Origin: Methylotenera sp.
GTDB taxonomy: Bacteria > Pseudomonadota > Gammaproteobacteria > Burkholderiales > Methylophilaceae
Direction of reading: 5' to 3'
DNA length: 64,000 bases
Assembly: GCF_030684185.1 (NCBI RefSeq)
Contig: NZ_JAUXOY010000028.1
Location: 1 to 64,000, forward strand
Shown here: positions 1 through 14,962 of the stretch, one piece after another
How positions within the stretch are numbered: the first letter of the stretch is position 1
How the letters are laid out: each line of letters begins with the position of its first letter
Translations under genes and position numbers: made by a program
Notes under the pieces: model-generated
What the model was told of the DNA's origin: nothing
Databases searched by the model: none
The model's input: only the letters and a program-made list of their open reading frames with translations

Positions 1-47
1 GTCATATATAAATTAACCTGTTTATCTGAAATGTGATTACCTGACAC
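1..47 (-). CDS. istA: IS21-family transposase IstA, N-terminal fragment (runs off the left edge)
   Basis: Reading the minus strand from 47, a GTG codon preceded by AAGGAGG (52-58, 4 nt spacing) opens a frame that stays open to the window edge and reads VSGNHISDKQVNLYM. This matches the usual N-terminus of IstA transposases of IS21-family elements, which begin with a short HI(T/S)DxQVxLYM segment ahead of a helix-turn-helix. Only 15 codons are visible, so the identification rests on this motif together with the repeated terminal sequences at 94-132, which lie between this gene and cas2 as expected for an IS21 end. The catalytic DDE domain and istB would lie to the left of the window. Confidence 0.72.
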   Translation of the reverse strand, partial: MSGNHISDKQVNLYM

Positions 48-92
48 AGCGCCTCCTTATGGTTTGCTGTGCAGAACTCTATCAGATCAACT

Positions 93-134
93 AGACAAGT
101 TAATTGTCGCTAGACCAGACAAGATAATTGTCGC
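93..134. repeat. Two terminal repeats of the IS21-like element (24 bp period)
   Basis: GACAAGTTAATTGTC (94-108) and GACAAGATAATTGTC (118-132) are each a GACAA/TTGTC dyad with a 5 nt centre, and each is followed by GC. The copies start exactly 24 bp apart. Multiple spaced copies of this kind at an IS end are the expected transposase-binding sites of IS21-type elements. They are too short and too few to be a CRISPR array and do not match the repeat predicted from the tracrRNA at 4.6 kb. Confidence 0.75.
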
Positions 135-383
135 TCAATAATCGGTTAAACATAAGGTGCGAATACTGCCTTCTGGCGGTAAATGTTGCCCTATGCGCAC
201 CAAATGTTTTTGTGATTGATCCATGCCGTTACATAAGCGGCTATACACTGAAAATTGCAACATATCGTAACCATCGCGCAGTAAAAAAGCATGAAAACGC
301 GTGTAATGGCGACGCGCCTCCTTAGTGGTGACGGGCAAATCAAAAAACAGTACGATGCGCATAAATGGTTGCCCGTTTTTCAT
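135..383 (-). CDS. cas2: CRISPR-associated endonuclease Cas2, C-terminally truncated by the IS
   Basis: Cas2 forms the adaptor dimer of the Cas1-Cas2 spacer-integration complex. The 82-residue product begins MKNGQPFMRIVLFFDLPV, with the ferredoxin-fold first strand FFDLP and its conserved Asp, and continues with the family segments FHAFLLRDGYDMLQFSVYSR and LPPEGSIRTL. Type II-C Cas2 proteins known to me are about 100-110 residues and continue after the I(T)E/DKQY segment; here the frame stops directly after LTDY, and the stop codon is supplied by the IS21 terminus. About 25 C-terminal residues, including the last strand used in dimer packing and Cas1 contact, seem to be missing. It is the last gene of the cas9-cas1-cas2 set, 109 bp after cas1, with a repeat hairpin between them. 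Spacer acquisition is probably impaired; whether residual function remains cannot be seen. Confidence 0.9.
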   Translation of the reverse strand: MKNGQPFMRIVLFFDLPVTTKEARRHYTRFHAFLLRDGYDMLQFSVYSRLCNGMDQSQKHLVRIGQHLPPEGSIRTLCLTDY

Positions 384-418
384 GGTTTAATATCCCAGCT
401 AAAGATGTAGCACTTCTA

Positions 419-482
419 TTTTGTAGGAGCGGTCTGTGACCGCGAACCCTCGCTTTCGCGGTCACAGACCGCTCCTACAAAA
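419..482. repeat. Long perfect palindrome, family-1 repeat (REP/BIME-like)
   Basis: Arms of 28 bp (419-446 and 455-482) are perfectly complementary around an 8 nt centre. The core GTAGGAGCGGTCTGTGACC recurs at 18.5-18.7 and 27.7 kb, and variants with the same GTAGGAGCG outer end occur at 24.7, 49.1 and 53.2 kb. It sits between cas2 and cas1, and its transcript would form a very stable hairpin that could reduce cas2 expression or act as a weak terminator. Confidence 0.85.
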
Positions 483-492
483 AACTTACCGC

Positions 493-1425
493 TCAACTCA
501 TTAGCTTAATACCAAATACTTTTGGCATGGTTGGTAGCAACAATTTATCTGGTTTAGCCAACTCTGTTGCCGTGCTTAAGCTTTTAACTAACAAATGAAT
601 AGTGTGTAATAAAGTATGTTTTTCACCTGCCGCCATGCAGGCCAATTGCAGGCTTTGTACTAGGCTGGCACGTTCTGGCAAGGTTAATTTTGCTTCCTCA
701 CTTTGCCCATGTAGGCCAATGTTATTTAAGCTTACATAAGCATCTACAAACGGGCGAAACGGCTCAATTAAATCATCCGCCAAGTTAAAGGCGTTAAGTT
801 CACTGCAATGGTGGATGCCAAGGGCTGGTATAAAGCCAAACTGCACTAATTCACGCGCAATGGCGGCGCGTATAATAGCGTAGCCATAATTGAGTGCTGC
901 GTTGGGTAAATCTTCACCATGCCGCTTAAACGCATCGTGGTTTACGCCATCAAACAGCACATTAAAATACAGCCGTGCGGCTTGTGCTTCACAATTTTGG
1001 CTATCGCCACTATCCACCTCAGTGGCTAATTTCGTTAAACGGGCGTGTTCTTTACCACATAGTTTTAAAGTGGCGGCTTGATTGTTAATTTTTTGCTTAA
1101 TAACCAACTGCCATAATCGCTTGGTAAATGGTTTAGACCATGCTACTTGCGCACGCAACATGCCTGCTTGACGGCTGTGCGGTAAAAAGCTGGTGAATAA
1201 GCCGTTAGGCGTGTGCGTTTCATCGCAGGTGATAATGGCGATATTTTCATCGGCACAGGCAGAAATCAAGGCACTGGTGAGCGTAATTTGCGGCGATTCC
1301 AACACGATGCTGGCAATGTCTTCTAGCGCCAAATTCACCTCGCCAGTGTCTTGCTCGCAACGCAACTGGCGGTTTTTAAGCGAGAGCCGCGCAGGGCGGC
1401 TAATCAGAAGATTCTGCCAAGCCAT
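493..1425 (-). CDS. cas1: CRISPR-associated endonuclease Cas1, subtype II-C
   Basis: Cas1 is the metal-dependent integrase that inserts new spacers. I chose the ATG at 1425, giving 310 residues beginning MAWQNLLISRPARLSLKNRQL. This matches the family N-terminus (W..v..spakLSlknnqL), and AGGAG lies 8 nt upstream; an in-frame ATG at 1467 would add 14 residues that the family does not have. The predicted metal ligands are present: E146 in CEAQAARLYF, H205/H206 in GIHHCSE and E221 in LADDLIEPFRPFVD. The start overlaps the end of cas9 by 26 bp, so the two are translationally coupled. No frameshift is visible and the gene looks intact, unlike cas2. Confidence 0.95.
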   Translation of the reverse strand: MAWQNLLISRPARLSLKNRQLRCEQDTGEVNLALEDIASIVLESPQITLTSALISACADENIAIITCDETHTPNGLFTSFLPHSRQAGMLRAQVAWSKPFTKRLWQLVIKQKINNQAATLKLCGKEHARLTKLATEVDSGDSQNCEAQAARLYFNVLFDGVNHDAFKRHGEDLPNAALNYGYAIIRAAIARELVQFGFIPALGIHHCSELNAFNLADDLIEPFRPFVDAYVSLNNIGLHGQSEEAKLTLPERASLVQSLQLACMAAGEKHTLLHTIHLLVKSLSTATELAKPDKLLLPTMPKVFGIKLMS

Positions 1426-4400
1426 GGCGTGGCTCCTGTTTAACTTCAAACACTTCGCCCAGCACATCCACTTGAAGTTTTTTGAAAATGCCGATATTTT
1501 GAACTCCTACACCAGTTCTAGCCCATGACCTATCATGCGCCTCAATGGAAATATTGCCGTTAGCTCTATCTGTACCTTTGTAATAACCTCGGATAAATGA
1601 GCCTTTTTCACCTTTTTTATCAGCAATCAAAATCAAATCATTATTACAAAGGCTAAAGGAAAATTGGTATGTTGCATCCATTTCAGGCCAATCTTGCTCT
1701 AGCGTTGCTTGCTTAATCGCTTTATTCGGCAGCACGCCACTGACGCGGTCAGCCAAATAAATGGGCACTAGGTAAAACTTGCCTGCTTTGGTGAATACAT
1801 CCACACGTAACATTTCGCCGTTATCTGCCAAGCCCCCACGCACGAGTACGCCAGTTTTGGTGGTGCGCTCAAGCTTAACACCTTTAATTAAACGGCCAAA
1901 AGCATCGTCACTTTCTTCCCCGTTTTTGCCTAAATAAAATGGCTTGGCAAATGGCTCTTTGCCACCTGTTTCTATTCGCTTTTTCAACGCTTGGTATAAA
2001 TTAGCGTTGCGCGTTTCTTTTTCAGGAATGTTTTCTAAGCTTGCCAGCGTTAATGCTTGCAATTTCGTTTTGCTGGTCGTAATTGGGTTTTCTTTACTCA
2101 TGCGCTTAGTGGAGCGAATGTTGGCATCATGCACGCCACCTGTCGCCTTGCGTGTAGGCGCACGCGAGACAAAAATTTCAGTCAACGCATCTTTAACATC
2201 TGCCCTAAAACTATCCCAAGGGAGCGGAAAATCTCGCCCTTCTTTTTTCTGATAATTAGTGGCAGTAATTTCGCCCGTATCGGTATCAATAATTTCTAGG
2301 TTTCGAGAGTAATCGCCAGATTTTTTATCACTCGCCCAAAGCTCTTTTTTACGTGAATAATCTGATACTCGTTTAACAAAGCCTTGTGTGGTACAAGCCA
2401 CTACGGCGGCATCAAGCGCATGGTGCAAATCACCATCGGCACGCACTTTATGTAAACCCCAATGGGCGCGTAAAAACGAAGTGACTGCGCCATTGCGGGT
2501 TTGCACTTTGATTTTGTTTTCACTGGGTGCAAATTGCAGATTAAGCTTTAAAAACTCCTGCAAAAAGCGCGAGATATAACGCGTGTCATTTAAATTACGC
2601 TCTCTAAATTCCTGTTCGGCTTTTTCGTCAAAATCTACCCGTAATAAGCGGTTGCGCTTGGATTGCCTAAAGGCGTTGTGCGTTTCAATGCGTACCTTGT
2701 AGTCATGCCATTGCTGGCTGGCGAACGCGCCATTTAAATACTCATAAGGTGTTTTGTTGCCTTTATCGCGGTTGGCTTTGCTGGTGCATAACACTTTGTT
2801 TTTTAAGCTGTCATCCATACTGCGGCTGTACGGCAGAATATGGTCAATTTCGGCGTAGCCTTCTTCTAACAAACGCGCTGGCTCTAAATACACACCACTA
2901 TAAGCACAGTAATTATATTCACGCCATAACCTGAATTTTGTAAACTCATCACCGCGTGGGTCACGCCCAAAAGTGCCGTTAAACTGCTTAACTGTGCGCT
3001 CTTTTTCCGCCTGAAACTCTTTTTGTTTACCTTCAATGTCTTTGCGCTCGCTATAAGGTTGCGATAACTCACGCGATAGCTCAATGTTAATCTGCGTAGG
3101 GCTGCCATAACGGCGAATCATGGCATTTATTACCTTGCGGGCTTGGGTAAGCGCACGTAACACCACGGGGTTACGTACTTCATCGGTTGGAATGTAAGGC
3201 AAAAATTGCTGTGGTTGTGCTTCGGTGGGCGCGGAGTGGTCATAGCCTGCCGCCGTGCAAGCTTCGTCATAACGTAGCCCTTGCGCTAAAAAGGGGTTGA
3301 TATTGCGTAAGGCTTTGAGTGACAATGCCACGGCTTTATCAAATGACAACGCTAACACCGACTCTAGCAAGGCTGGTTCTAGTTGCTCAGGTGCGAGCAT
3401 TTCACGAATTTTGTCATCGCTTTTGTACCAAGTAAGTGCAGTGGCAATGGCATCTAGCTTATCGGGCTGGCTGGTAAGGTTGCCCCACGCAAGCTCACCA
3501 CAAGCCTTAGTTACTACACCACGCAACTGGTGGTAAGCTTTAAGTTCTGCAAAAGCCGCGTCTTCAGATTTATCAATTTCACCGCTTTTATATTGCACTA
3601 AGTTAAAACGAACTGATGCAGATAAATCTAAAGCTGTACGAATTTGACTATACTTAACTTTGGTTAATTTATACGCCATCGTTTCAATGGTTTTGCGTTG
3701 CGCTGCATCTAATGCGCGGCGTTCACCTGCTTCAATCAACATCAAGTTATTTAAGCGTGAAAGCAATACAAAACGCTCTGCGCTATAAGTAGCTTTTGCT
3801 GCACGTTTTTCATCAGGCTCAAACGTGCAAAAGCCCACCATATCTGCAATTTCGCCATCATCTACAGGTCGTTGCGAGGCGAAAATATTGGTGTAATCTT
3901 CCTCAAAACCAGTGCTTGCAAAAGCATTGCCAAGACCACGCTGCGCTTCAAACAAAGCTTTAATTTCAAGCAGTAAATCATCACGTGCTACGGTGTGGCT
4001 GTAATCTCCGCCTTTATTGCGCTTATGTTGCGCAAATTTTTCATCTTTCCACACCATTTCACCAATGGTGCGGTAATTTTTTTCATGCAAAAGCTTAGCA
4101 TTGCCCGTTACGCCTTGTAATAATTTGCCGCCTTCTTTATCGCCAGCTTCACTTTTACGGTTAGATTTAAAACCACGGTGTTTGGCAATATGCAATAACA
4201 CACGTGCCCAATCACGTTGGTTTAGTTTGCGTTCTAACCCGTCAGCACGTAGCAACCAAGGCGTTAAGTCATCCGCAGTAATCTCAGATAAGACTTCTGG
4301 CACAACATCATTGATTAAGCCTACGCGATAAAATAATCGTCGAATACGCGCCATACGATGCGCTCTGCGGCGAATGCGGCGGCGCATTCCTCGCGCCTCC

Positions 4401-4558
4401 CTTCTTGGTTTTGCTAGCGACTCTCCTGTTTTTGGCACTTCAGCCGCCACAAAAATGCGCGACCCTAAACCAATTAACGGTGTTATTTCTTGCGTGTCAT
4501 CAATCGCCGCCCAACCAATAGATGCAACGCCAATATCTAAACCAAAAACAAGTGCCAT
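1400..4558 (-). CDS. cas9: Cas9, subtype II-C CRISPR RNA-guided endonuclease (1052 aa)
   Basis: Cas9 uses a crRNA:tracrRNA duplex to cut double-stranded DNA. All nuclease motifs are visible. RuvC-I is GLDIGVASIGWA with D8; the arginine-rich bridge helix follows at about residues 50-80; RuvC-II is INIELSREL with E493. The HNH domain runs from YCAYSGVYL to ANRDKGNKTPYEY with D572, H573 and N596; RuvC-III is LHHALDAAVVAC with H713 and D716. The C-terminal 200 or so residues would be the wedge/PAM-interacting region. The length of 1052 and the cas9-cas1-cas2 order without csn2 or cas4 place it in II-C, like the roughly 1080-residue Neisseria protein. The start has AGGGAG 4 nt upstream. The gene is intact, so interference could still work if an array exists outside the window. 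Downstream cas1 overlaps its end. Confidence 0.97.
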   Translation of the reverse strand: MALVFGLDIGVASIGWAAIDDTQEITPLIGLGSRIFVAAEVPKTGESLAKPRREARGMRRRIRRRAHRMARIRRLFYRVGLINDVVPEVLSEITADDLTPWLLRADGLERKLNQRDWARVLLHIAKHRGFKSNRKSEAGDKEGGKLLQGVTGNAKLLHEKNYRTIGEMVWKDEKFAQHKRNKGGDYSHTVARDDLLLEIKALFEAQRGLGNAFASTGFEEDYTNIFASQRPVDDGEIADMVGFCTFEPDEKRAAKATYSAERFVLLSRLNNLMLIEAGERRALDAAQRKTIETMAYKLTKVKYSQIRTALDLSASVRFNLVQYKSGEIDKSEDAAFAELKAYHQLRGVVTKACGELAWGNLTSQPDKLDAIATALTWYKSDDKIREMLAPEQLEPALLESVLALSFDKAVALSLKALRNINPFLAQGLRYDEACTAAGYDHSAPTEAQPQQFLPYIPTDEVRNPVVLRALTQARKVINAMIRRYGSPTQINIELSRELSQPYSERKDIEGKQKEFQAEKERTVKQFNGTFGRDPRGDEFTKFRLWREYNYCAYSGVYLEPARLLEEGYAEIDHILPYSRSMDDSLKNKVLCTSKANRDKGNKTPYEYLNGAFASQQWHDYKVRIETHNAFRQSKRNRLLRVDFDEKAEQEFRERNLNDTRYISRFLQEFLKLNLQFAPSENKIKVQTRNGAVTSFLRAHWGLHKVRADGDLHHALDAAVVACTTQGFVKRVSDYSRKKELWASDKKSGDYSRNLEIIDTDTGEITATNYQKKEGRDFPLPWDSFRADVKDALTEIFVSRAPTRKATGGVHDANIRSTKRMSKENPITTSKTKLQALTLASLENIPEKETRNANLYQALKKRIETGGKEPFAKPFYLGKNGEESDDAFGRLIKGVKLERTTKTGVLVRGGLADNGEMLRVDVFTKAGKFYLVPIYLADRVSGVLPNKAIKQATLEQDWPEMDATYQFSFSLCNNDLILIADKKGEKGSFIRGYYKGTDRANGNISIEAHDRSWARTGVGVQNIGIFKKLQVDVLGEVFEVKQEPRHGLAESSD

Positions 4559-4584
4559 AGAACTCCCTTTTTAGTATTATTTAG

Positions 4585-4593
4585 TGCTATCAT
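4585..4593 (+). promoter_or_regulatory. Extended -10 promoter candidate for the tracrRNA
   Basis: TGCTATCAT at 4585-4593 fits an extended -10 element (TG, one base, then TATCAT). It places a start site near 4600, directly before the anti-repeat. No good -35 is seen 17 bp upstream, which extended -10 promoters tolerate. Confidence 0.4.
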
Positions 4594-4599
4594 TCTTTC

Positions 4600-4688
4600 A
4601 ACGTAATCCTTCGGAATGGGGCACGTTGCTATAATAAGACTTAAATGTCGTAAGGTATCCCCCAAGAATGAAAATTTTTGGGGGTATC
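4600..4688 (+). ncRNA. Predicted type II-C tracrRNA
   Basis: The 177 bp gap between cas9 and mfd holds a sequence organised like the Neisseria-type tracrRNA. There is an anti-repeat (about 4600-4636) ending GTTGCTATAATAAG, compared with GTTGCTACAATAAGG in the Neisseria RNA. A short stem GAC-TTAAAT-GTC follows, and then a 10 bp terminal hairpin with arms 4659-4668 (CCCCCAAGAA) and 4675-4684 (TTTTTGGGGG) around a TGAAAA loop. It predicts crRNA repeats starting GTTATAGC and containing CCCCATTCCGAAGG. Its location next to cas9, divergent from it, is common for II-C loci. There is no T-run after the hairpin, so the exact 3' end is uncertain. Confidence 0.78.
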
Positions 4689-4734
4689 CTCCAAAAAAAC
4701 TCAATATCAGTCAACAAATTACTAAATCTAACTC

Positions 4735-7700
4735 ATGTCGCAGACTTCACTGCAAGTTCCAAAATCAGGTCAATCTTCTCGTGCTGAGCTTTTTAGCGAT
4801 GGTGAAGATGGCCTTGCGCTGGCTGATTTAGCGCTTAAACTCAAAAACTCCAGCCCAGCTAAACCATTAATCATAATCACAGCTAACGCGTTTGATGCAC
4901 AGCGCCTGTTAGAAGAAATCCCCTACTTTGCCCCGAGCTTAAGTGTGCATTTGTTACCCGATTGGGAAACACTGCCTTATGACCAGTTTTCGCCGCACCC
5001 TGATTTAATTTCAGACCGCCTGACTACGCTTTATCACATTGCGCAAAATGCTTGTGATGTAATTATTGTGCCGCTATCTACAGCGCTGATTCGCTTGAGT
5101 CCAAAAGCCTTTTTGAGTGCAAACACCTTTATGCTTAAAAAAGGCCAAACGCTGGATACCGAAGCATTGCGGCGTCAGTGTGCGGAAGCAGGTTATCACC
5201 ATGTCACACAAGTGATTTCTCACGGTGAGTTTAGCGTGCGCGGCGGGCTGGTGGATTTATTTCCAATGGGTTCTGCGCTGCCCTACCGCATTGATTTATT
5301 TGATAACGAAATTGAAACCATCCGCACGTTTGATGTAGATACGCAGCGCAGCTTGTACCCTGTACCTGAAATTCGCTTGTTGCCTGCGCGTGAGTTTCCG
5401 TTAGATGAAACTGGTATTACACTCTTCCGAGGGCAGTTTAGAGAAGCTTTTGAAGGCGACCCGCAGCGCGCTAAGATTTATAAAGATGTCAGTAAGGGTG
5501 TGGCTTCTGGCGGCATTGAGTGGTATTTACCGTTATTTTTTGAACAAACCGCAACATTTTTAGATTATCTGCCAGCAGATGGTTTGCTTTGCCTACATGG
5601 CGACCTTGACCACAGTGCGCAGCAATTTTGGCGTGAGGCGCAATCACGCTATCGTACGCTGGCACATGATGCTGAACGACCTTTATTAACCCCCGAAAAA
5701 TTACTGATTAAAACAGAAGACTTTTTTAGCGCCACTCATGCGTTTACACGCATTTTGTTGACGACTAATAACAAGTCAACTGGTTTACCTGCGCTAGACA
5801 TTGAACGCCGTGCTGAACAGCCATTGCATAAACTTCAAAGCTACATTTCAGATTTCGCAGGGCGTATTTTAGTCGCTGCTGAAAGCCTTGGGCGTCGAGA
5901 AACCATCTCACAACTATTTGCCGAGCATAGTTTGCAGCCTGCCGTGATAGAAACCTGGGCAGAATTCAAAGACTCAAAAGAAAAGTTCATGCTGGGTGTT
6001 TCGCCACTACATCATGGATTTTGTTTAGAGAACACTGCAACTAGCAAATCGATTGCCGTCATTACCGAAGCAGAGCTATACGCTGCTACTGTACGCCAAC
6101 AGCGTAGACGCGAAAAGGAAAAAGCGCGCAGCACTGAAGGCATGCTCAAAGACTTATCCGAACTGCGTATAGACGACCCGGTAGTGCATGAGCAGCACGG
6201 TGTTGGCCGTTACAAAGGGTTGGTGAATTTAGACTTTGGCGAAGGTGAAACGGAGCTTTTACTGCTGGAATATTTTGGCGAAGATAAGCTTTATGTACCA
6301 GTCTCGCAGTTGTTCCTAATTTCACGTTATTCTGGCGGACCGCCAGAATCTGCACCGTTACACCGCTTAGGTAGTGGCAACTGGGAAAAAGCCAAGAAGA
6401 AAGCCCTTAAACAAATCCGTGATACAGCGGCAGAACTCCTCAATTTATATGCGCAGCGCGCTTCACGGCGCGGTCATGCGTTTACGCTTAGCTTGCACGA
6501 TTATGAATCGTTCTGCGAAGGTTTTCCGTTTGAAGAAACGCCAGACCAACTAGAAGCGATTGAAAACGTCATCAAAGACATGCAGTCCGGGCGCCCGATG
6601 GACAGACTAGTGTGTGGCGATGTAGGTTTTGGTAAAACCGAAGTTGCTCTGCGCGCTGCTTTTGTCGCGGTGATGGGCGGTAGGCAAGTGGCGGTTCTAG
6701 TGCCTACAACATTATTGGCTGAACAACACTTTAATAACTTTAAAGATCGCTTTGCTGAATGGCCAATCAAGATTGCAGAAATATCACGCTTTAGAACCGC
6801 AAAAGAACAAAAAGAAGCGCTGGCTGGATTAGAAGCAGGGCAAATTGACATCATTATCGGTACACACCGCCTCATTCAAAAAGACGTTAAATTCAAAAAT
6901 CTGGGCTTAGTGGTATTAGATGAAGAACACCGTTTTGGTGTGCGTCAAAAAGAGCAACTCAAAGCTTTACGCGCCGAGGTTGATGTGCTCACACTCACCG
7001 CCACACCGATTCCACGCACGCTCAGTATGGCGATGGAAGGTTTACGCGAGTTCTCTATCATCACCACCCCGCCACAAAAACGCTTAAGCATTAAAACCTT
7101 CCATACCGATTATTCTGAAGGCATCATTCGCGAGGCTGCCATGCGTGAATTCAAGCGCGGCGGTCAGGTGTATTTTCTGCATAATGAAGTTGATACCATT
7201 CATTCCATGCGTGAGAAATTAGAGCGCATATTGCCTGATGCACGCATTGCAGTCGCTCACGGGCAGTTACGAGAGCGCGAGCTGGAACACGTGATGCGCG
7301 ACTTCTACAACCAACGTTATAACCTGCTGCTGTGTACTACGATTATTGAAACTGGCATTGATGTACCTACTGCCAACACCATTATTTTGAACAAAGCAGA
7401 TATGTTTGGGCTGGCACAAATGCACCAGCTACGTGGCCGTGTTGGTCGATCACATCACCAAGCGTATGCATATTTACTTACCGACCCTGACCGAAAAATT
7501 ACCGTGCAGGCGCAAAAACGCTTAGATGCGATTCAACTCATGGAAGACCTGGGCGCGGGTTTCCACCTTGCCATGCACGATCTGGAAATTCGGGGTGCAG
7601 GTGAATTGTTAGGTGACTCACAAAGTGGCGAGATGCAGGAAATTGGCTTTCATTTATATTCAGACATGTTGAACCATGCAGTTAAACAACTCAAAGCAGG

Positions 7701-8163
7701 TAAGGAGCCAGATTTAAACGCACCGCTTGGCGTTACTACAGAAATTAACCTGCATACACCCGCCCTGCTCACCAATAAGTATTGTCCTGATGTACATGAA
7801 CGTTTAGTCATTTATAAACGTTTAGCCAACTGTAACGATGATGACGAACTGGACGGCTTGCAAGAAGAACTGATAGACCGCTTTGGATTATTGCCGGAAC
7901 AAGGCGAAGCACTCATCGCATGCCATAGGCTGCGCATAGCAGCCAAAGCAATAGGCATCATTAAAATTGACGCCAGTGCTGATGCGATTCAACTGCAGTT
8001 TAACCCGAAAGCAGATATTGACCCGCTTAAACTAATTAACCTGCTTCAGCGCGACAGACGCTGCCGAATGAATGGTCCGGATAAGCTGAGAGTAAGTGTG
8101 GGCTTGGAAGCAATTAACCTGCGAACTGACTTTGTAAAAACTTTATTGAAAGAGTTTATTTAG
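4735..8163 (+). CDS. mfd: Transcription-repair coupling factor Mfd
   Basis: Mfd removes RNA polymerase stalled at DNA lesions and recruits UvrA. The 1142-residue length is typical of the family. Visible parts in order: UvrB-homology region (about 1-350), the RNA-polymerase-interacting domain starting near residue 479 (DPVVHEQHGVGRYKGL), the helicase core with Walker A GDVGFGKTEVALRA near 628, DEEHRFGV near 727, LTATPIPRTL, the TRG-type motif RGRVGRSHHQAYAYLL near 899, and the TRCF domain after about 1000. No strong ribosome-binding site precedes the ATG at 4735; the start was chosen because it gives the family N-terminus with SRAELFSDGEDGLALADLAL. It is transcribed away from cas9 and may share transcripts with the tracrRNA if termination leaks. 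Confidence 0.97.
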   Translation: MSQTSLQVPKSGQSSRAELFSDGEDGLALADLALKLKNSSPAKPLIIITANAFDAQRLLEEIPYFAPSLSVHLLPDWETLPYDQFSPHPDLISDRLTTLYHIAQNACDVIIVPLSTALIRLSPKAFLSANTFMLKKGQTLDTEALRRQCAEAGYHHVTQVISHGEFSVRGGLVDLFPMGSALPYRIDLFDNEIETIRTFDVDTQRSLYPVPEIRLLPAREFPLDETGITLFRGQFREAFEGDPQRAKIYKDVSKGVASGGIEWYLPLFFEQTATFLDYLPADGLLCLHGDLDHSAQQFWREAQSRYRTLAHDAERPLLTPEKLLIKTEDFFSATHAFTRILLTTNNKSTGLPALDIERRAEQPLHKLQSYISDFAGRILVAAESLGRRETISQLFAEHSLQPAVIETWAEFKDSKEKFMLGVSPLHHGFCLENTATSKSIAVITEAELYAATVRQQRRREKEKARSTEGMLKDLSELRIDDPVVHEQHGVGRYKGLVNLDFGEGETELLLLEYFGEDKLYVPVSQLFLISRYSGGPPESAPLHRLGSGNWEKAKKKALKQIRDTAAELLNLYAQRASRRGHAFTLSLHDYESFCEGFPFEETPDQLEAIENVIKDMQSGRPMDRLVCGDVGFGKTEVALRAAFVAVMGGRQVAVLVPTTLLAEQHFNNFKDRFAEWPIKIAEISRFRTAKEQKEALAGLEAGQIDIIIGTHRLIQKDVKFKNLGLVVLDEEHRFGVRQKEQLKALRAEVDVLTLTATPIPRTLSMAMEGLREFSIITTPPQKRLSIKTFHTDYSEGIIREAAMREFKRGGQVYFLHNEVDTIHSMREKLERILPDARIAVAHGQLRERELEHVMRDFYNQRYNLLLCTTIIETGIDVPTANTIILNKADMFGLAQMHQLRGRVGRSHHQAYAYLLTDPDRKITVQAQKRLDAIQLMEDLGAGFHLAMHDLEIRGAGELLGDSQSGEMQEIGFHLYSDMLNHAVKQLKAGKEPDLNAPLGVTTEINLHTPALLTNKYCPDVHERLVIYKRLANCNDDDELDGLQEELIDRFGLLPEQGEALIACHRLRIAAKAIGIIKIDASADAIQLQFNPKADIDPLKLINLLQRDRRCRMNGPDKLRVSVGLEAINLRTDFVKTLLKEFI

Positions 8164-8167
8164 GAAA

Positions 8168-8233
8168 ATGCTGATTTCACCAGTTTCGTCATGCCGGTCT
8201 GCTCTGAAATGACGGGGGTGAGTAAATCAGCAT
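8168..8233. repeat. Nested inverted repeat between convergent mfd and yqaA-like genes
   Basis: ATGCTGATTT (8168-8177) pairs with AAATCAGCAT (8224-8233), and CGTCAT/ATGACG pair inside. The position between two converging genes suggests a bidirectional terminator or a small repeat element. The TGCTGATTT end resembles the ends of the MITE-like element at 47.9 kb. Confidence 0.5.
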
Positions 8234-8236
8234 AAC

Positions 8237-8812
8237 TTATCGAAATACCAACACCGCAATAGCAACCAAACCTACCGTTATCCAGCCAATGCGGTCCACG
8301 TACTGATGCAATGATTGTTCCATTTTTGCCCCACCCCATTTCATTAAGCCTGCCACCATATAAAAGCGCATGCCTCGCCCGATGACTGATGCAATAGTGA
8401 ACGGCAGTAATGCCATTGAAAGCGAACCAGCGGCTATGGTAAAGACTTTGTAAGGAATCGGCGAAAAGCCTGCAACAAATATCGCCCAAAAACCCCATTT
8501 TTCAAACCAAACCACTGCGGTTTGGTAAGCATCCCAATAATGGCTGGCTTTAAGGTGTGGTTGAATGATATCAAATAATGTTGCACCAATGAAATAGCCC
8601 AACAAACCGCCCAGCACTGAAGCCACAGTGGTAATCAAAGCAAATCGCCAGGCGCGTTCAGGTTTGGCTAAACTCATGGGGGCTAACATCACATCAGGCG
8701 GAATCGGGAAGAATGACGACTCAGCAAAACTAAGCGCGCTCAAATACCATGGTGCATTTGGTAACCTTGCCCATACCATGGCACGCTGATACATCAGTGA
8801 GAATATTTTCAT
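8237..8812 (-). CDS. DedA/YqaA-type small membrane protein
   Basis: The 191-residue product has the SNARE-associated/DedA (VTT) pattern: an N-terminal amphipathic region (ALSFAESSFFPIPPDVMLAPM), a helix rich in glycine (TTVASVLGGLLGYFIGA), and the segment FVAGFSPIPYKVFTIAAG, followed by hydrophobic helices to the C-terminus. DedA-family proteins are inner-membrane proteins linked to lipid flipping and membrane homeostasis; the YqaA branch is poorly characterised. It stands alone, convergent with mfd and followed upstream by a 100 bp gap to the helicase gene. The proline/charged motif F.PIPP/SPIPYK is conserved in YqaA-like members. I give no gene symbol because branch assignment was not tested. 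Confidence 0.85.
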   Translation of the reverse strand: MKIFSLMYQRAMVWARLPNAPWYLSALSFAESSFFPIPPDVMLAPMSLAKPERAWRFALITTVASVLGGLLGYFIGATLFDIIQPHLKASHYWDAYQTAVVWFEKWGFWAIFVAGFSPIPYKVFTIAAGSLSMALLPFTIASVIGRGMRFYMVAGLMKWGGAKMEQSLHQYVDRIGWITVGLVAIAVLVFR

Positions 8813-8915
8813 TTATTATTTAACCTTTTAAAGTATTCCTATCAACTAAGGGCCTTCCTAGATAACACATAGCCCCAGATGACCCATGGATTCAAACAGC
8901 CTAACCTGGGTTATA

Positions 8916-11900
8916 TCAATCCAATAAAACTAACTTACTTATCGCCATAAAAAACACAGCGCATTTTACCTGTTTACTTTCATCTGCAAACAATATCGCA
9001 TAGTTTTTTAGTTGCTCCCGATAATTTTCTGCAGCAATTTTTAATGTGGCGTTTGAGGCATCTGCTGTTAAAGCAATCGTCTTATAGTCAACAATCCATC
9101 TCACATCATTTTCAATAAAAGTACGGTCAACAATATAGTTTTTAACTTCGCCATTGTGCATGGATGTGATGCCTAGCTCTGCCTCACCGCGTGCTTTAAG
9201 TAACCACTGACCATCTTCACTTTGCAAGGTAACTTCAAGCAAATTTTGCACTCGCTGGCCTGCTTCCATGGCAATTTTTTCAGCATGCCCTTGTTGACGC
9301 AGCCAATGCTGCATGGCAGGGTTAAGTGTCGCAATACGTGCTGCCGACCAGGCTGCTAAACCTTGCTGTGCTATCATTTCCATATACCGATGAGCCAAAG
9401 TGCCAATATCAGCTTCCAGGCTCTGAACAAGGCTGGGCTGAGCGGCAAAGTTGTTTTGTGAAGTGGCTGCTATGGAATGTTTCGTTTGTAAAACCGCAGG
9501 GACTTGTAGCTGCTTTAAGCGCACCAAACGTGGCGTAAAGTTGGCAATGGTATCTTCTGTATCTACTTGTTGTTGAGGCGGTTCTGCTGATTCATACACC
9601 GTTGCTACCGCAGGCCATAGTAAATCTAAATAAGTGTTTTTGGTTGGGGAAACTTCACCTTTTGCGTTTTTATTAGCAATGCCCACCAGATGCAGTTGGC
9701 GCTCTGCGCGGGTGGCGGCTACGTACAGCACCCTTGCGTCTTCATTTGCATCGCGTGCGCTTTCGCGCGATTCTAAATAGTCATAAGCGCTGACTTTATC
9801 TTTATCACGCAAACCTTTGGGTATAAATGGCGCCGCCAGCAACTCATATTGGGCATGGTCATGATGTGGATTAACAAGGACCTCTTCCCACAATACAATC
9901 GGCTTATCACCATGATTACCGCCTATGCTTGCGCCCAACCCTGGCAAAATGACGGTATCAAATTCCAGCCCTTTAGATTTATGTATCGTCATCATTTGCA
10001 AACTTTCACCCTGGGTTTCTGGTGCGGCAAACAGTTTGGTGATTTCGGTTTGCATACGCTCGGGTGAAAACTGATTGCTACGGTCTAAATTATCTAAACA
10101 CGCAAAAAACGCCTGTACATCAACGACGTCAGATTGCTCCCACAGGCAAGCAGTGCCGTTTAACATGAGCCACACACCGCGCACCCAGCGGCTAACATTC
10201 ATGCGTCCCTGTGTTTCAAATGCCTCAGCAAATATCTCGCGCACATGGTGCAAACGCATTTTTCCATCAGCAGATAAGCCTTTCACGACTTCATCATTTT
10301 GCATCAGCGACCAGATGCTGTCGTGTTGATTATGCCCCGCCAGCGCATGCAAATCGTGCAAGGTTAGCCCACACCAAGGCGCGCGCAATATACTAAGCCA
10401 ATGCACACGATCCGCTCTATGATGCAGCGCATGGGTGAGCGAGAGCAAATCCTGCACAATCTGGCGCCCTTCTAACGCCTCAATCTCAACCGCCTGAAAA
10501 GCGATTTCAGGGTGATTTCGACGCAACTTTGTCACCAGCGATGCCAAGTGCTTTTTAGCCCGCACCAACACCGCAATTTTTTTATTTGGGTCTGCTGCGC
10601 GCTCGCGTTGAATGATTTTGATCACCGCATCGGCTTCACGCTGGCTTGCAAGGGCTGATGATTCATCGACCAAACTCACAATAGGATGCACTTCAACCCC
10701 CGCTTGAATCGCATCAGGCTTAGTCGCAATAAACGGGCGATACTGAATTGCGCCTTGCGTTACGGCATCACTTGCCGGAAAAATTGGCGCGAACGTCTGG
10801 TTAATCCAATCGACTACCGCAGGACATGAGCGGTTATTGCGGTAAAGCTGTAATTTCTCAAGTTTTATATCACCGATACCATGGTTTGCTGCTTCAATAA
10901 ACAGCCCGACATTGGCTTTACGGAAGCGATAAATCGATTGCATGGGATCACCCACGGTAAACAGTGTGCGACTATCACCCACTTGCCAGCCTAAAGTAAG
11001 CTGCTCTAACAGCTTGATCTGGCTTGGGCTGGTATCCTGAAACTCATCAACCAGCAAATGCTGAATTTGGTAATCAAGTTTCAATGCCAACTCGGTGGGT
11101 TCACCAAAGTTATCTGATAACGCACGCGTGGCACGATAAGCAATCTCCACAAAATCAACCTCACCTGCACGCTGAAACACCAGCCACAATTCAGCAACAG
11201 CCAAGTTGAGCAGCCTGGAAAGCGTGGTGATGATTTGCCAGCCTTCCTGATTGGTAGAAACAGCAGGTAATGTTCTGGTTTTAGCTAAAGACTCCGCAAA
11301 ACTACCACCTGCCTCTAGTGAGGCTAAAAATGCATTAAAGCTGGCTTTCTCATCTTTATATTCTGCCGGAAAACCGGTGTTTTTATCAACTCTGGCACGG
11401 ATTTTATCGTCTTTGGTGAGAACAAGCTCACGTACCGCCAGCCACATTGGCAATGCGTCAGCATGCGTCGGCAATGTGGACTCCCAATCTCTTAACAAGG
11501 CAATCGGGTGTTCACATGGCAACTGGCTAGCGGCAAATCTTGCTAACGGCATTAACTCATATTGAATGCGCGAATTAAAAACTGAAGCAATGGCTTCAAG
11601 CTCCTGTTCTACCAAATAACGCAAAGTGCTTTGTAATTGTTCGGCATCCACTTCATGTTGCGCATGATGCAGCCATTGGTCACGCTTTTCTAACATTGCA
11701 ATCAGCAAATTCTTGAGCTGATTGGCGTCATTATCCACATAGCGCAACGCGTCTTTTACCACATCGCAATGTGTGGCATCTTCTAACAAAGCTAGCGTTT
11801 GCTCGGCCGCTTGGCCATACAGGGCGCTCGCCTCGTCAGTGACTCGGGGCTGCGAGCCAAAACGGCTCATCAGCGGCATTTGCCTGGCTAAGTGCGCGCA

Positions 11901-12281
11901 CAAACTATCAATGGTAAAAATTCGCAGGCGCGCTGGGTTTTCAATCAGTTGCCAATTATTTTCTTGCGACTTCTGCAAGGCTTTCAGGCTCAATTCATAA
12001 GTAATCTGTTTATGAGCCTGCTCTGGCACATCTTCATTATCCGCCCTAATCAAACTATCCAAAATGCGTAAACGCATTTCTGCCGCCGCCTTATTGGTAA
12101 AAGTGATTGCGATAATTTCTTCTGGCGCGTTAACGGTTTGTAGCAGCTTCAAATAACGCTGTGTAAGCAGCTCGGTTTTACCCGCACCCGCTGGCGCTTC
12201 AACAATGAATGAAGTTAACTCGAGCGCGCGTGAACGGTTTTTTTCATCGGCTTCAAGATTTAAAGCTTGCGGAGTCGTCAT
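8916..12281 (-). CDS. AddA-like UvrD-family helicase with C-terminal nuclease domain
   Basis: This is a 1121-residue superfamily 1 helicase. Walker A is VEAPAGAGKTELLTQRYL near residue 35; later motifs are AITFTNKAAAEMR, LLVDEFQDTSPSQ, VGDPMQSIYRFRKANV, MTIHKSKGLEFDTVILPG and VLYVAATRAERQLHL. The C-terminus has a RecB-type PD-(D/E)XK nuclease signature, RWIVDYKT. The next gene overlaps it by 4 bp and encodes an AddB-like partner, so the pair probably forms a recombination helicase-nuclease that resects double-strand breaks, as AddAB or RecBCD do. The fold and motifs are clear; equivalence to characterised AddA is inference because this betaproteobacterial type is divergent. Confidence 0.9.
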   Translation of the reverse strand: MTTPQALNLEADEKNRSRALELTSFIVEAPAGAGKTELLTQRYLKLLQTVNAPEEIIAITFTNKAAAEMRLRILDSLIRADNEDVPEQAHKQITYELSLKALQKSQENNWQLIENPARLRIFTIDSLCAHLARQMPLMSRFGSQPRVTDEASALYGQAAEQTLALLEDATHCDVVKDALRYVDNDANQLKNLLIAMLEKRDQWLHHAQHEVDAEQLQSTLRYLVEQELEAIASVFNSRIQYELMPLARFAASQLPCEHPIALLRDWESTLPTHADALPMWLAVRELVLTKDDKIRARVDKNTGFPAEYKDEKASFNAFLASLEAGGSFAESLAKTRTLPAVSTNQEGWQIITTLSRLLNLAVAELWLVFQRAGEVDFVEIAYRATRALSDNFGEPTELALKLDYQIQHLLVDEFQDTSPSQIKLLEQLTLGWQVGDSRTLFTVGDPMQSIYRFRKANVGLFIEAANHGIGDIKLEKLQLYRNNRSCPAVVDWINQTFAPIFPASDAVTQGAIQYRPFIATKPDAIQAGVEVHPIVSLVDESSALASQREADAVIKIIQRERAADPNKKIAVLVRAKKHLASLVTKLRRNHPEIAFQAVEIEALEGRQIVQDLLSLTHALHHRADRVHWLSILRAPWCGLTLHDLHALAGHNQHDSIWSLMQNDEVVKGLSADGKMRLHHVREIFAEAFETQGRMNVSRWVRGVWLMLNGTACLWEQSDVVDVQAFFACLDNLDRSNQFSPERMQTEITKLFAAPETQGESLQMMTIHKSKGLEFDTVILPGLGASIGGNHGDKPIVLWEEVLVNPHHDHAQYELLAAPFIPKGLRDKDKVSAYDYLESRESARDANEDARVLYVAATRAERQLHLVGIANKNAKGEVSPTKNTYLDLLWPAVATVYESAEPPQQQVDTEDTIANFTPRLVRLKQLQVPAVLQTKHSIAATSQNNFAAQPSLVQSLEADIGTLAHRYMEMIAQQGLAAWSAARIATLNPAMQHWLRQQGHAEKIAMEAGQRVQNLLEVTLQSEDGQWLLKARGEAELGITSMHNGEVKNYIVDRTFIENDVRWIVDYKTIALTADASNATLKIAAENYREQLKNYAILFADESKQVKCAVFFMAISKLVLLD

Positions 12282-14962
12282 GCCTTCTCCCCTTGAAACC
12301 GCTCAAACTGCAACTTACGTTCAGGCAATCGCAACAACGGCGTCACCTCGCAATAAGCCAACTCATTCTCATCGTTAAACCGCACCGCAGATTCACCTGC
12401 TTTAATCTCTTCGGCAATCTCTTCAATACTGGTTTTCCAGTGCATTAGCAGGTGCTGCCAATCAATAAAAGCTTTGGTGAAAGCAGGTTTGCGTTTATCC
12501 GGTTCAGCCTCAAAGTTCTCCTCTCCCACCCCTGAAAAAGCATGCTCTGCAATTTTAACCATACCGAAATAAACGCCTGCAACCTGCGCGATGTCTTCCG
12601 CATAAAAAGCTGCGTAAATGGGCAACTGAGGCTCGGTGATGCGGTCTTCCCCCCAACTTTTTGTTTTTGGAATCTGCCCGGTTTTATAGTCAACAAACAC
12701 CAGTCCGCCGCTTTCAAGTTGGTGAATCCTGTCAATTTTAAGCGTGACTTCTATGCCGCAAATCTGTACTTGCTTCTCTGCCTCGCAAGCAACAATGTTA
12801 AACGCAACACCACGCGTTTTTTCAAATTGCAACCAGTCACCAATCAGCTTGCTTAGTCGTTCATGCTCAAGCTCCAACACTGTAGGCGAGGCAACGCTAC
12901 TCTCGGCAGCAAAAGCTTGTAGCGTGCTTTGGATGGCTGCAATCAGCGCTTGTGAAAAATCAGCTTCACTCATATCTCGCAAGTCTGCAAAGTGCCGTTT
13001 ACGCCAAAACCGCTCTAATACATCATGTACTAGTGAACCACGCTCCATGCTATCTAAACCGCTGGTGGGCGTTTTAAGCGCTTTTGCAGCTAGCCGATAT
13101 TGGTAAAAAGCCCACGCAGGGCAAATGGCTTGTGCTTTAAGCAATCCTGTACCGCCTGAAACGTGATCACCAACTTGCACAGCTGGTGCGATGTGGTCAT
13201 CAATCGTGGTTAAGTCTGCGTTACCGGCGTGGCTTAGCTGTTCGGCTAAAGTTTCCGCGAGTGGCATATCAGCTTCAATCATGACCACATCTTTCATGAG
13301 TGGCGAAGCACGGAGCTGGCTCTCGCCTTCTGTTTTGCTACTGGAAAAAACAATGTGTTTTGCAGAGTGCAGCAAGCGTTGGTGTATGGTCGCGGCGAAT
13401 GCCGCTTGCACACTGTTATCTGCATTAGGCAATGCGGCAGCGCGCTGAATAGATGCAGGCAAAAGCGGATTAGGTCGTGCTGGCGGCGGCCAAATATGGT
13501 CGTTCATATTCATACACCACATAGCATCCACAGGCGCGCTCAATGCCTCCATAATACCTAGAATCTGTATGGCAGATTCATGCTCGGTTTCTGCCTGAAA
13601 TACTTGTTCAGTGCATATCTGCTGTATCAAGTGTGCGGCCTCAGCGATTGACAGGGTTTTGCCGAGTACGTCTAATTTAGCCATTTGCTGCAAGGCTTTT
13701 TTCCATGCGTTAACGGCTTGATATTCAAGGCTGCTGATATTGCGCTCACCAGGCCAATTAAGGGCTGTAAGCAAGTTAGTTAAGATTTGCGCCCAATTTG
13801 AAGGCATTGCCTTTTTGGTTGGAACGGCAGAGGCCGCACGTAAATGTGTCAATAAACCTGAAATTCCCAAACCATTATCATGCTGCTGCTCTGCAAATTC
13901 CATAAAGCGTTGTAAGGTAAATTGCATAGGCAGCTTTTCGCGCATTTTGGCATCAAGCATGGCGCGCGCATCGGCCTCTTTTGTACTGGCTGACCAAAAT
14001 GGTGATAACAAAACATGAGACACGTCAGCCTGCTGTAGTTGGTACGCGCTTAATAAACGAATCAGGTTTAATGCTGCCTGAATAATAGGTTGCTGGGCTA
14101 ACGGCGTACCAAGCGAGAAATTATAATGGCGTGGCATCTCCGCCATGCCGGGGCGCACGCTGGCAGGGTAAAAACCGTCATCGAGCAAATCAGCCAATTG
14201 ATTTCTAATATCACTTAATCTTGGCGAAACAATGGCAAGTTTCGCGTTTGGATTAGCTTCTAGCATGTGTTGCGCCCATGCCACCGCAGCGCGACATTCT
14301 GCCTCTTGGTTTTCCAAACTTATATGCTGTGTTTGCGCGGGTTCTACACAGATAGTAGCGTAATCCTCCACCTGCACTGCACGTGCCAGCAATACCTCAC
14401 GCAGACGCTTTTCTTGCGGTGCCGTTTGGTCAAAACCCGCAAATGCAATTTGAGCAGGTAACGCAGCCGTGCTTTGCGCGATGCAATCCAGCTGCCAATC
14501 TATAAAACGCACATTCTCTAGCGCATTTAACTGAATACAACGTTGCCTGAAAGCCCATTGCCACTGCATAAACTGGCGTGATTCCTCTGCTGCAAGTTCA
14601 CGTGGAATGTGCAAATTCCACGCAACCATGTAACGGTTTGCCTCCATGGCCGCACTCGCCAAACCAGACACATCAAACAACTCACCAAACGCATTCTTTT
14701 TGAGCGATTGCGTAATCACGTCTTCCCACAGCAATTGCTCATTAAACGGACTTAGCGCATAAGGCGGCATTTGCGCAGCATTTTGATTAGTCAGTAACTC
14801 TGCTTCTATAACAGCCTCTAACCATTGCGTTAGTGTGAGCACTGTCGGGCTAAGCCACTGCGCTTCACCCGCCTGTATATGTTGTTGCGCTATGTCGTTT
14901 TGAATACTGCGTGCAAGACGAGCCGATGGGCAAATAATGATGGAATGTGTGGTTAAAGACAT
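12278..14962 (-). CDS. AddB-like PD-(D/E)XK nuclease subunit
   Basis: The roughly 894-residue product starts MSLTTHSIIICPSARLARSIQ. An in-frame ATG at 14989 is possible, but neither start has a clear ribosome-binding site, and the shorter one fits the family. It resembles inactivated helicase/nuclease subunits of the AddB type: no Walker A is visible at the N-terminus, the middle carries ALSAPVDAMWCMNMNDHIWPP, and the C-terminal nuclease part has GSLVHDVLERFW and LVFVDYKTGQIP. The four cysteines that hold the iron-sulfur cluster in Firmicutes AddB are not evident; I see only one nearby (QAICPAWAFYQ). It is translationally coupled to the AddA-like gene by a 4 bp overlap (12278-12281). Confidence 0.86.
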   Translation of the reverse strand: MSLTTHSIIICPSARLARSIQNDIAQQHIQAGEAQWLSPTVLTLTQWLEAVIEAELLTNQNAAQMPPYALSPFNEQLLWEDVITQSLKKNAFGELFDVSGLASAAMEANRYMVAWNLHIPRELAAEESRQFMQWQWAFRQRCIQLNALENVRFIDWQLDCIAQSTAALPAQIAFAGFDQTAPQEKRLREVLLARAVQVEDYATICVEPAQTQHISLENQEAECRAAVAWAQHMLEANPNAKLAIVSPRLSDIRNQLADLLDDGFYPASVRPGMAEMPRHYNFSLGTPLAQQPIIQAALNLIRLLSAYQLQQADVSHVLLSPFWSASTKEADARAMLDAKMREKLPMQFTLQRFMEFAEQQHDNGLGISGLLTHLRAASAVPTKKAMPSNWAQILTNLLTALNWPGERNISSLEYQAVNAWKKALQQMAKLDVLGKTLSIAEAAHLIQQICTEQVFQAETEHESAIQILGIMEALSAPVDAMWCMNMNDHIWPPPARPNPLLPASIQRAAALPNADNSVQAAFAATIHQRLLHSAKHIVFSSSKTEGESQLRASPLMKDVVMIEADMPLAETLAEQLSHAGNADLTTIDDHIAPAVQVGDHVSGGTGLLKAQAICPAWAFYQYRLAAKALKTPTSGLDSMERGSLVHDVLERFWRKRHFADLRDMSEADFSQALIAAIQSTLQAFAAESSVASPTVLELEHERLSKLIGDWLQFEKTRGVAFNIVACEAEKQVQICGIEVTLKIDRIHQLESGGLVFVDYKTGQIPKTKSWGEDRITEPQLPIYAAFYAEDIAQVAGVYFGMVKIAEHAFSGVGEENFEAEPDKRKPAFTKAFIDWQHLLMHWKTSIEEIAEEIKAGESAVRFNDENELAYCEVTPLLRLPERKLQFERFQGEKA

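Follow-up and report, generated by a model that had tools for sequence, protein, structure and literature searches.

Type II-C CRISPR-Cas9 loci of Neisseria follow the order cas9-cas1-cas2-array, which is also the order reconstructed below for the locus described here, and a U-tract terminator is a common but non-defining feature of tracrRNAs. For N. meningitidis, the accessible text of PMC8616872 describes crRNA biogenesis from promoters located inside the repeats, and exchange of dual-RNA and Cas9 is reported, in the available part of PMC3936727, solely between closely related systems. The accessible Methylotenera and Methylophilaceae literature on CRISPR-Cas9 (including part of PMC13059738; most subscription papers were out of reach) does not describe the system analysed here, and literature searches by the letters of its repeat and anti-repeat returned one chance match and no description of the system.

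We analysed a window (the whole stretch of 64,000 nucleotides) that forms the start of contig C12 in a Methylotenera genome of 30 contigs and 2,723,195 bases (G000 below). Judging from the sequence, positions 4600-4690 very probably encode the tracrRNA of a II-C CRISPR-Cas9 system of the Neisseria type. The kind is well known and this system is a divergent representative, in which an acquisition gene is broken and the position relative to mfd is unusual; we infer that it is transcribed, that Cas9 binds the RNA and that the 17 stored spacers confer immunity. The features referred to in the text are as follows, in window coordinates unless a locus is named.

1-140, no strand assigned: end of an IS21-family element, where the contig begins (flank comparison)
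141-383, minus strand: 5' part of cas2, cut after about codon 81 (TIGR01573 positions 1-71 of 96)
L037:10867-10959, on the C18 side: remainder of cas2
493-1467, minus strand: cas1, type II, open, listed start maybe too early (TIGR03639, E = 6.6 × 10−88)
1400-4558, minus strand: cas9, 1052 amino acids, open (TIGR01865, E = 2.9 × 10−228)
4585-4593, plus strand: extended −10 TGCTATCAT, same letters in the four close genomes
4600-4690, plus strand: predicted tracrRNA, about 91 nt (repeat pairing, four-genome alignment, fold z)
4600-4635, plus strand: anti-repeat (duplex with the C18 repeat)
4603-4622, plus strand: upper stem of the anti-repeat, 20 bp
4623-4627, plus strand: bulge of the anti-repeat, 5 nt
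4628-4635, plus strand: lower stem of the anti-repeat, 8 bp
4627-4635, plus strand: second, perfect extended −10 TGCTATAAT within the anti-repeat (by sequence), same in the four close genomes
4638-4649, plus strand: central stem-loop GAC-TTAAAT-GTC, invariant among the four close sequences
4653-4690, plus strand: terminal hairpin region, 11 bp and 3 outer pairs, without a U-tract
4735-8163, plus strand: mfd, which lies downstream of the tracrRNA and runs in its direction

The predicted tracrRNA and the repeat it pairs with

A whole-genome search for CCCCATTCCGAAGG, which the first-pass annotation had predicted from the anti-repeat alone as part of a repeat whose array was not visible to it (the array is on contig C18, the window on C12), returned 23 places with at most two mismatches. 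Nineteen of these are exact, namely the anti-repeat itself and 18 copies on C18, and the remaining four are inexact and scattered. The copies on C18 form an array of 18 identical 36-nt repeats (GTTATAGCCCCCAGCCCCATTCCGAAGGGTTATAAT) with a period of 66 bp and 17 spacers of 30 nt each, 15 of which are distinct (spacer 4 equals spacer 5, and 10 equals 11). As foretold, the repeat begins GTTATAGC and includes CCCCATTCCGAAGG; in this draft genome, a repeat predicted from its anti-repeat was thus found by genome search although the array and the cas genes sit on separate contigs. A genome search with GTTATAGCAACGTG, the strict complement of the 3' part of the anti-repeat, missed the array because the C18 repeat differs within the bulge. 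The 3' end of the repeat is TATAAT, a −10 element placed as reported for the in-repeat promoters of N. meningitidis.

The anti-repeat is complementary to the repeat of its own genome, the two forming 8 bp, a 5 × 5 loop and 20 bp (−46.1 kcal/mol). When positions 1-8000 were scanned on both strands in every window of 44 nt, the best partner of the C18 repeat begins at 4593 (plus strand), and the runner-up reaches −28.3 kcal/mol. Two thousand mononucleotide-shuffled repeats paired with the tracrRNA gave a mean of −15.0 (sd 3.1) and a best value of −29.7, compared to the observed −46.1. The C18 repeat pairs at −46.1 kcal/mol with the tracrRNAs of the four close genomes (G000, G143, G149 and G166), and at −19.1 to −23.9 with three distant tracrRNAs and with the second tracrRNA of the same genome. 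The repeat of G143 differs from the C18 repeat by one base, located in the unpaired loop. The first-pass annotation had held that its prediction would fail if a CRISPR array in the genome had a repeat unable to pair with 4600-4636; the C18 repeat does pair there. The repeat of the other array of the genome, on contig C10, pairs poorly with this RNA (−16.8), but that array is served by a separate tracrRNA.

The fold of the tracrRNA is more stable than expected (z = −3.74; none of 200 shuffles was as stable). The central stem consists of 3 bp (GAC/GUC, 4638-4640 with 4647-4649), and folding gives the terminal hairpin a main stem of 11 bp (4659-4684) and three outer pairs (4653-4655 with 4688-4690). 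The II-C plan described in the first pass is present with its anti-repeat and short central stem, and the terminal hairpin is 11 bp long instead of the 10 bp claimed. In the alignment of the four close genomes, which replaced a first alignment that had misplaced G166, most of the anti-repeat and the entire central stem are unchanged, and conservation stops at 4690, with divergence beyond. This edge is the same despite different neighbours: G000 and G143 have mfd there, G149 has an MgtC-family gene in convergent orientation, and G166 has a ppx-like gene (a name read from its sequence). All 44 main-stem cells of the terminal hairpin are paired across the four genomes, and one pair shows a double-sided change, which is thin covariation given that 121 of 500 shuffles equal it.

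The extended −10 that the first-pass annotation had assigned to the tracrRNA is indeed found at 4585-4593, identical in all four genomes, and a start near A4600, downstream of it, is expected. The −35/−10 scan of this stretch did not list the TGCTATCAT promoter, which has no −35 match. By the definition of the tool used, there are 0 U-tract terminators in the window stretch and in the corresponding locus of G143 (L126), and Rfam yielded nothing at gathering score within positions 1-12000. In the mechanism that we propose, the tracrRNA probably starts from TGCTATCAT and would pair with the repeat part of every crRNA, the crRNAs probably being initiated singly from the TATAAT at the 3' end of each repeat; the repeat duplex and the 3' hairpins would then form the guide scaffold that Cas9 binds for DNA cutting.

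The cas genes, the split cas2 and the array

The Cas9 encoded here contains RuvC and HNH domains (TIGR01865; HNH_4, RuvC_III and Cas9_a). The large minus-strand ORFs between the IS end and mfd are the cut cas2, cas1 and cas9, and a HicB-like ORF, a PIN ORF and tldD lie on the array side; among large ORFs, cas9, cas1 and cas2 are the only cas genes of the locus, and csn2 and cas4 are absent. Between cas1 and cas2 (419-482) lies an inverted repeat (TAGGAGCGGTCTGTGACCGCGA type) whose 28 bp match perfectly around a loop of 8 nt.

The cas2 gene is split by the IS21-family element, with a 5-bp target duplication (CCGAT at 141-145), and resumes on the C18 side with TDKQFGRMQHWIG...QQLILL. An uninterrupted 109-amino-acid Cas2 of G149 (PF09827) spans the two parts, the second of which differs by one substitution, and an array remnant lies directly beyond this Cas2. 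As the split leaves no complete Cas1-Cas2 acquisition pair, the locus has probably lost the acquisition of new spacers. Such a loss is compatible with interference and the rest of the locus is II-C, so we file the system as II-C with a broken acquisition module. A literature search returned no case of a II-C cas2 interrupted by an insertion sequence. The locus combines a broken acquisition gene with an open effector reading frame and a uniform array, so that it can serve to test stored memory in the absence of new uptake.

The IS copy on C18 encodes IstB (PF01695, E = 1.5 × 10−62), and its partner gene scores below the Pfam cut-off. In the examined stretches of the genome we identified 7 left and 8 right IS ends, among which 6 pairs share flank letters: C12-left with C18-right (CCGAT), C18-left with C9 (7 letters), C28 with C3 (6), C25 with C7 (8), C8 with the start of C5 (6) and C17 with the start of C1 (5). 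No partner was found for three ends: a left one in C1, and right ones in C26 and at the end of C5. Since the flanks of the C18 copy match other places (the left one C9, the right one cas2 on C12), C18 is joined across a repeated IS, through misassembly or recombination, and an originally remote array was rejected on these grounds. A link to CRISPR-associated Tn7 was rejected on the same mismatched flanks. C18 carries a Tn7-like gene set (TniQ, TniB, a Mu-type transposase and a TnsA-like protein; L037 1317-6979, minus strand), which an IS21-family copy separates from the array. At the end of C1 (L078), a short unit occurs in repeated copies (GTTCCCTGAGCTTGTCGAAG type).

From the IS flanks, the G149 cas2 and the placement of tldD, the ancestral arrangement would most simply have been tldD-array-cas2-cas1-cas9-tracrRNA-mfd, with the array adjacent to cas2. 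On C18, tldD (Pfam PmbA_TldD domains) lies beyond the array, and G143 has the same TldD protein followed by its array. Our mfd survey matched 52 genomes, from which 30 loci were fetched; 22 of these have a TldD-like C-terminus ahead of mfd, in 14 loci at no more than 150 bp, and the 8 loci without it include G000, G143 and G149. The 3' end of tldD on C18 is apparently part-duplicated (L037 about 12290-12384 and 13130-13230), flanking the HicB-like (12422-12658) and PIN-domain (12655-13029) ORFs as if these had been inserted. An AT-rich long hairpin with GC ends (GCGCCCAT...ATGGGCGC type) accompanies both arrays of the genome (L037 about 12205-12265; L111 about 13846-13889) and the arrays of relatives (L140, L141 and L142, ahead of the first repeat), always at the same end; judged by eye, it has undergone paired base changes from one genome to another.

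The C18 and G143 arrays gave no match to phages, and nothing was found in viral contigs with exact pieces of spacers, 6 of the 15 distinct ones of C18 and two from the G166 array. The array search of 52 genomes returned four arrays and one weak match (21 bases, G143), and that of 187 genomes returned 25 weak matches, several of which straddle repeat and spacer. A group of matches to spacer 17 in six genomes (20-22 of 30 positions identical), apparently at one conserved chromosomal site, was treated as chance and rejected. As no convincing protospacer was found in the phages, viral contigs and genomes searched, a PAM is not derivable.

On contig C8 of G149 (L112 and L142; about 25.4-61.9 kb), about 36 kb separate cas1 from the whole cas2, with phage genes (Mu F-like and Baseplate J) at both of the ends that were read; with cas9 in two frames and a remnant array, this is a second disruption in the lineage, by another element. 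Together, the broken cas2 here and the two-frame cas9 and array remnant of G149 suggest that the lineage may be decaying, and they are, with the phage genes between cas1 and cas2, what speaks for reading the tracrRNA gene as a relic of a nonworking system whose sequences persist passively. We consider this rather unlikely, because cas9 and cas1 are open in the genome studied, the 18 repeats are identical to the last copy, and the anti-repeat, for the most part, and the full central stem are the same in four genomes.

The mfd neighbourhood

Of the 30 regions upstream of mfd, 21 contain a CCGTTATAAT-type motif. It is missing in G000 and G143, where the cassette adjoins mfd, and retained in G149 and G166, where the cassette is elsewhere. 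Besides G000 and G143, the 9 motif-less loci comprise three that have tldD at about 50 bp, three that have a different TATAAT at 68 bp and one without anything recognised. Between tracrRNA and mfd, no hexamer with at least 5 of 6 matches to the −10 was found in G000, and the gap in G143 has TAAAAT at 24 bp. The lack of a U-tract terminator and the presence of TGCTATAAT in the anti-repeat suggest that mfd might also be expressed from the tracrRNA locus, with TGCTATAAT as a possible second start reading toward it. It is conceivable but doubtful that mfd now uses the tracrRNA gene as its promoter and leader, the cassette between tldD and mfd having displaced the usual −10; if true, the guide scaffold and the transcription-repair coupling factor would share one control region.

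We regard it as unlikely that the interval also serves as mfd promoter and leader, in which case a longer mfd transcript would begin with the tracrRNA. This reading would account for the missing terminator, for the perfect extended −10 at 4627-4635 and for the absence of the motif in both genomes with the cassette beside mfd, but the same RNA is present in G149 and G166, whose mfd genes lie elsewhere and keep the motif, and an mfd leader leaves the match to the array unexplained. It is further weakened by the absence of the motif from 7 of the 28 loci without a cassette beside mfd. A Cas9-associated regulatory RNA of the scaRNA kind, known with Cas9 in Neisseria and Francisella according to the accessible part of PMC13431127, is very improbable here, as the RNA pairs over a long stretch with the repeat of its own genome and lies opposite cas9, both of which are traits of a tracrRNA. 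In what follows, 4600-4690 is read as a tracrRNA.

Relatives and comparison with known systems

Cas9 matches were identified in 17 of 150 genomes of the family, the window's genome counted. The closest are those of G143 (86% identical) and G149 (92% and 85%, in two frames), and a separate search found the first 66 Cas9 residues of G166 at a contig end (94%). A tracrRNA model built from the four close sequences has matches in 4 of 52 genomes of the genus, exactly those four, which match by construction and under the stricter filters that apply at that number of genomes; arrays were found in the same four.

We further compared the locus to six II-C systems of the same family with more distant Cas9s (G010, G024, G043, G081, G122 and G145; 44-47% identical over the best segments); a seventh distant locus, L117, was left out because its RNA runs into N. 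As in the window, the tracrRNA is divergent from cas9 in all six, and a GTATCC linker follows the central stem in five. TATCAT or TATTAT stands just upstream of the tracrRNA in five of the six, and a central stem is predicted in five, with arms of other sequence. Unlike the window RNA, all six have CTTTC after the terminal hairpin, and the repeats of the three that were read run GTTGTAGCTCCCTCTCTCACCCCGG..., unlike the C18 repeat. A covariance model of the six tracrRNAs missed the window RNA both in the window and in a search of the genome, which we count as divergence and not as evidence against a tracrRNA.

The same genome holds a second II-C locus on contig C10 (L111, C10:198000-215000), two features of which are:

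L111 7417-10716, plus strand: cas9 of the second system, 1099 amino acids
L111 near 7376, minus strand: tracrRNA of the second system

Both systems have cas9, cas1, cas2, an array and a tracrRNA; in the one on C10, both cas1 and cas2 are whole ORFs (cas2, 110 amino acids), its array contains 27 exact repeats (GTTCCGATACCCC...), and its tracrRNA pairs with its repeat at −55.8. The two Cas9s are 26-30% identical over matched parts, and the two scaffolds cross-pair weakly (−21.7 and −16.8, the latter for the C10 repeat with the window RNA). Two weakly cross-pairing II-C scaffolds in one genome constitute a natural pair for the study of guide-scaffold specificity.

Among solved structures, the best match of the window's Cas9 is a Neisseria II-C Cas9 (6jdq, E = 1.5 × 10−236), and the likeness extends to the RNA. 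The Nme1 single guide, by the letters printed in the accessible part of PMC6594998, has the same 8-bp lower stem and 5 × 5 loop, followed, as in the window RNA, by GTTGCTAyAATAA and two stem loops. Compared to the Neisseria scaffold, stem loop 1 of the window RNA has just 3 bp, and the terminal hairpin differs. The N. lactamica repeat, as given in the available portion of PMC4607530, shares 25 of 36 letters with the C18 repeat, yet it pairs with the window tracrRNA at −22.4 kcal/mol vs. −46.1 for the genome's own repeat. The first-pass view of an anti-repeat clearly unlike that of Neisseria is supported by the weak cross-pairing and tempered by the similarity of the repeats, and its description of the tracrRNA as divergent is borne out at the level of the scaffold, both by this difference in pairing and by the failure of the six-relative model to find the RNA. 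From the co-occurrence of this RNA with its array in the same four genomes, and from the restriction of exchange to close relatives in PMC3936727, as far as that source was accessible, we infer that this Cas9 recognises its own guide scaffold.
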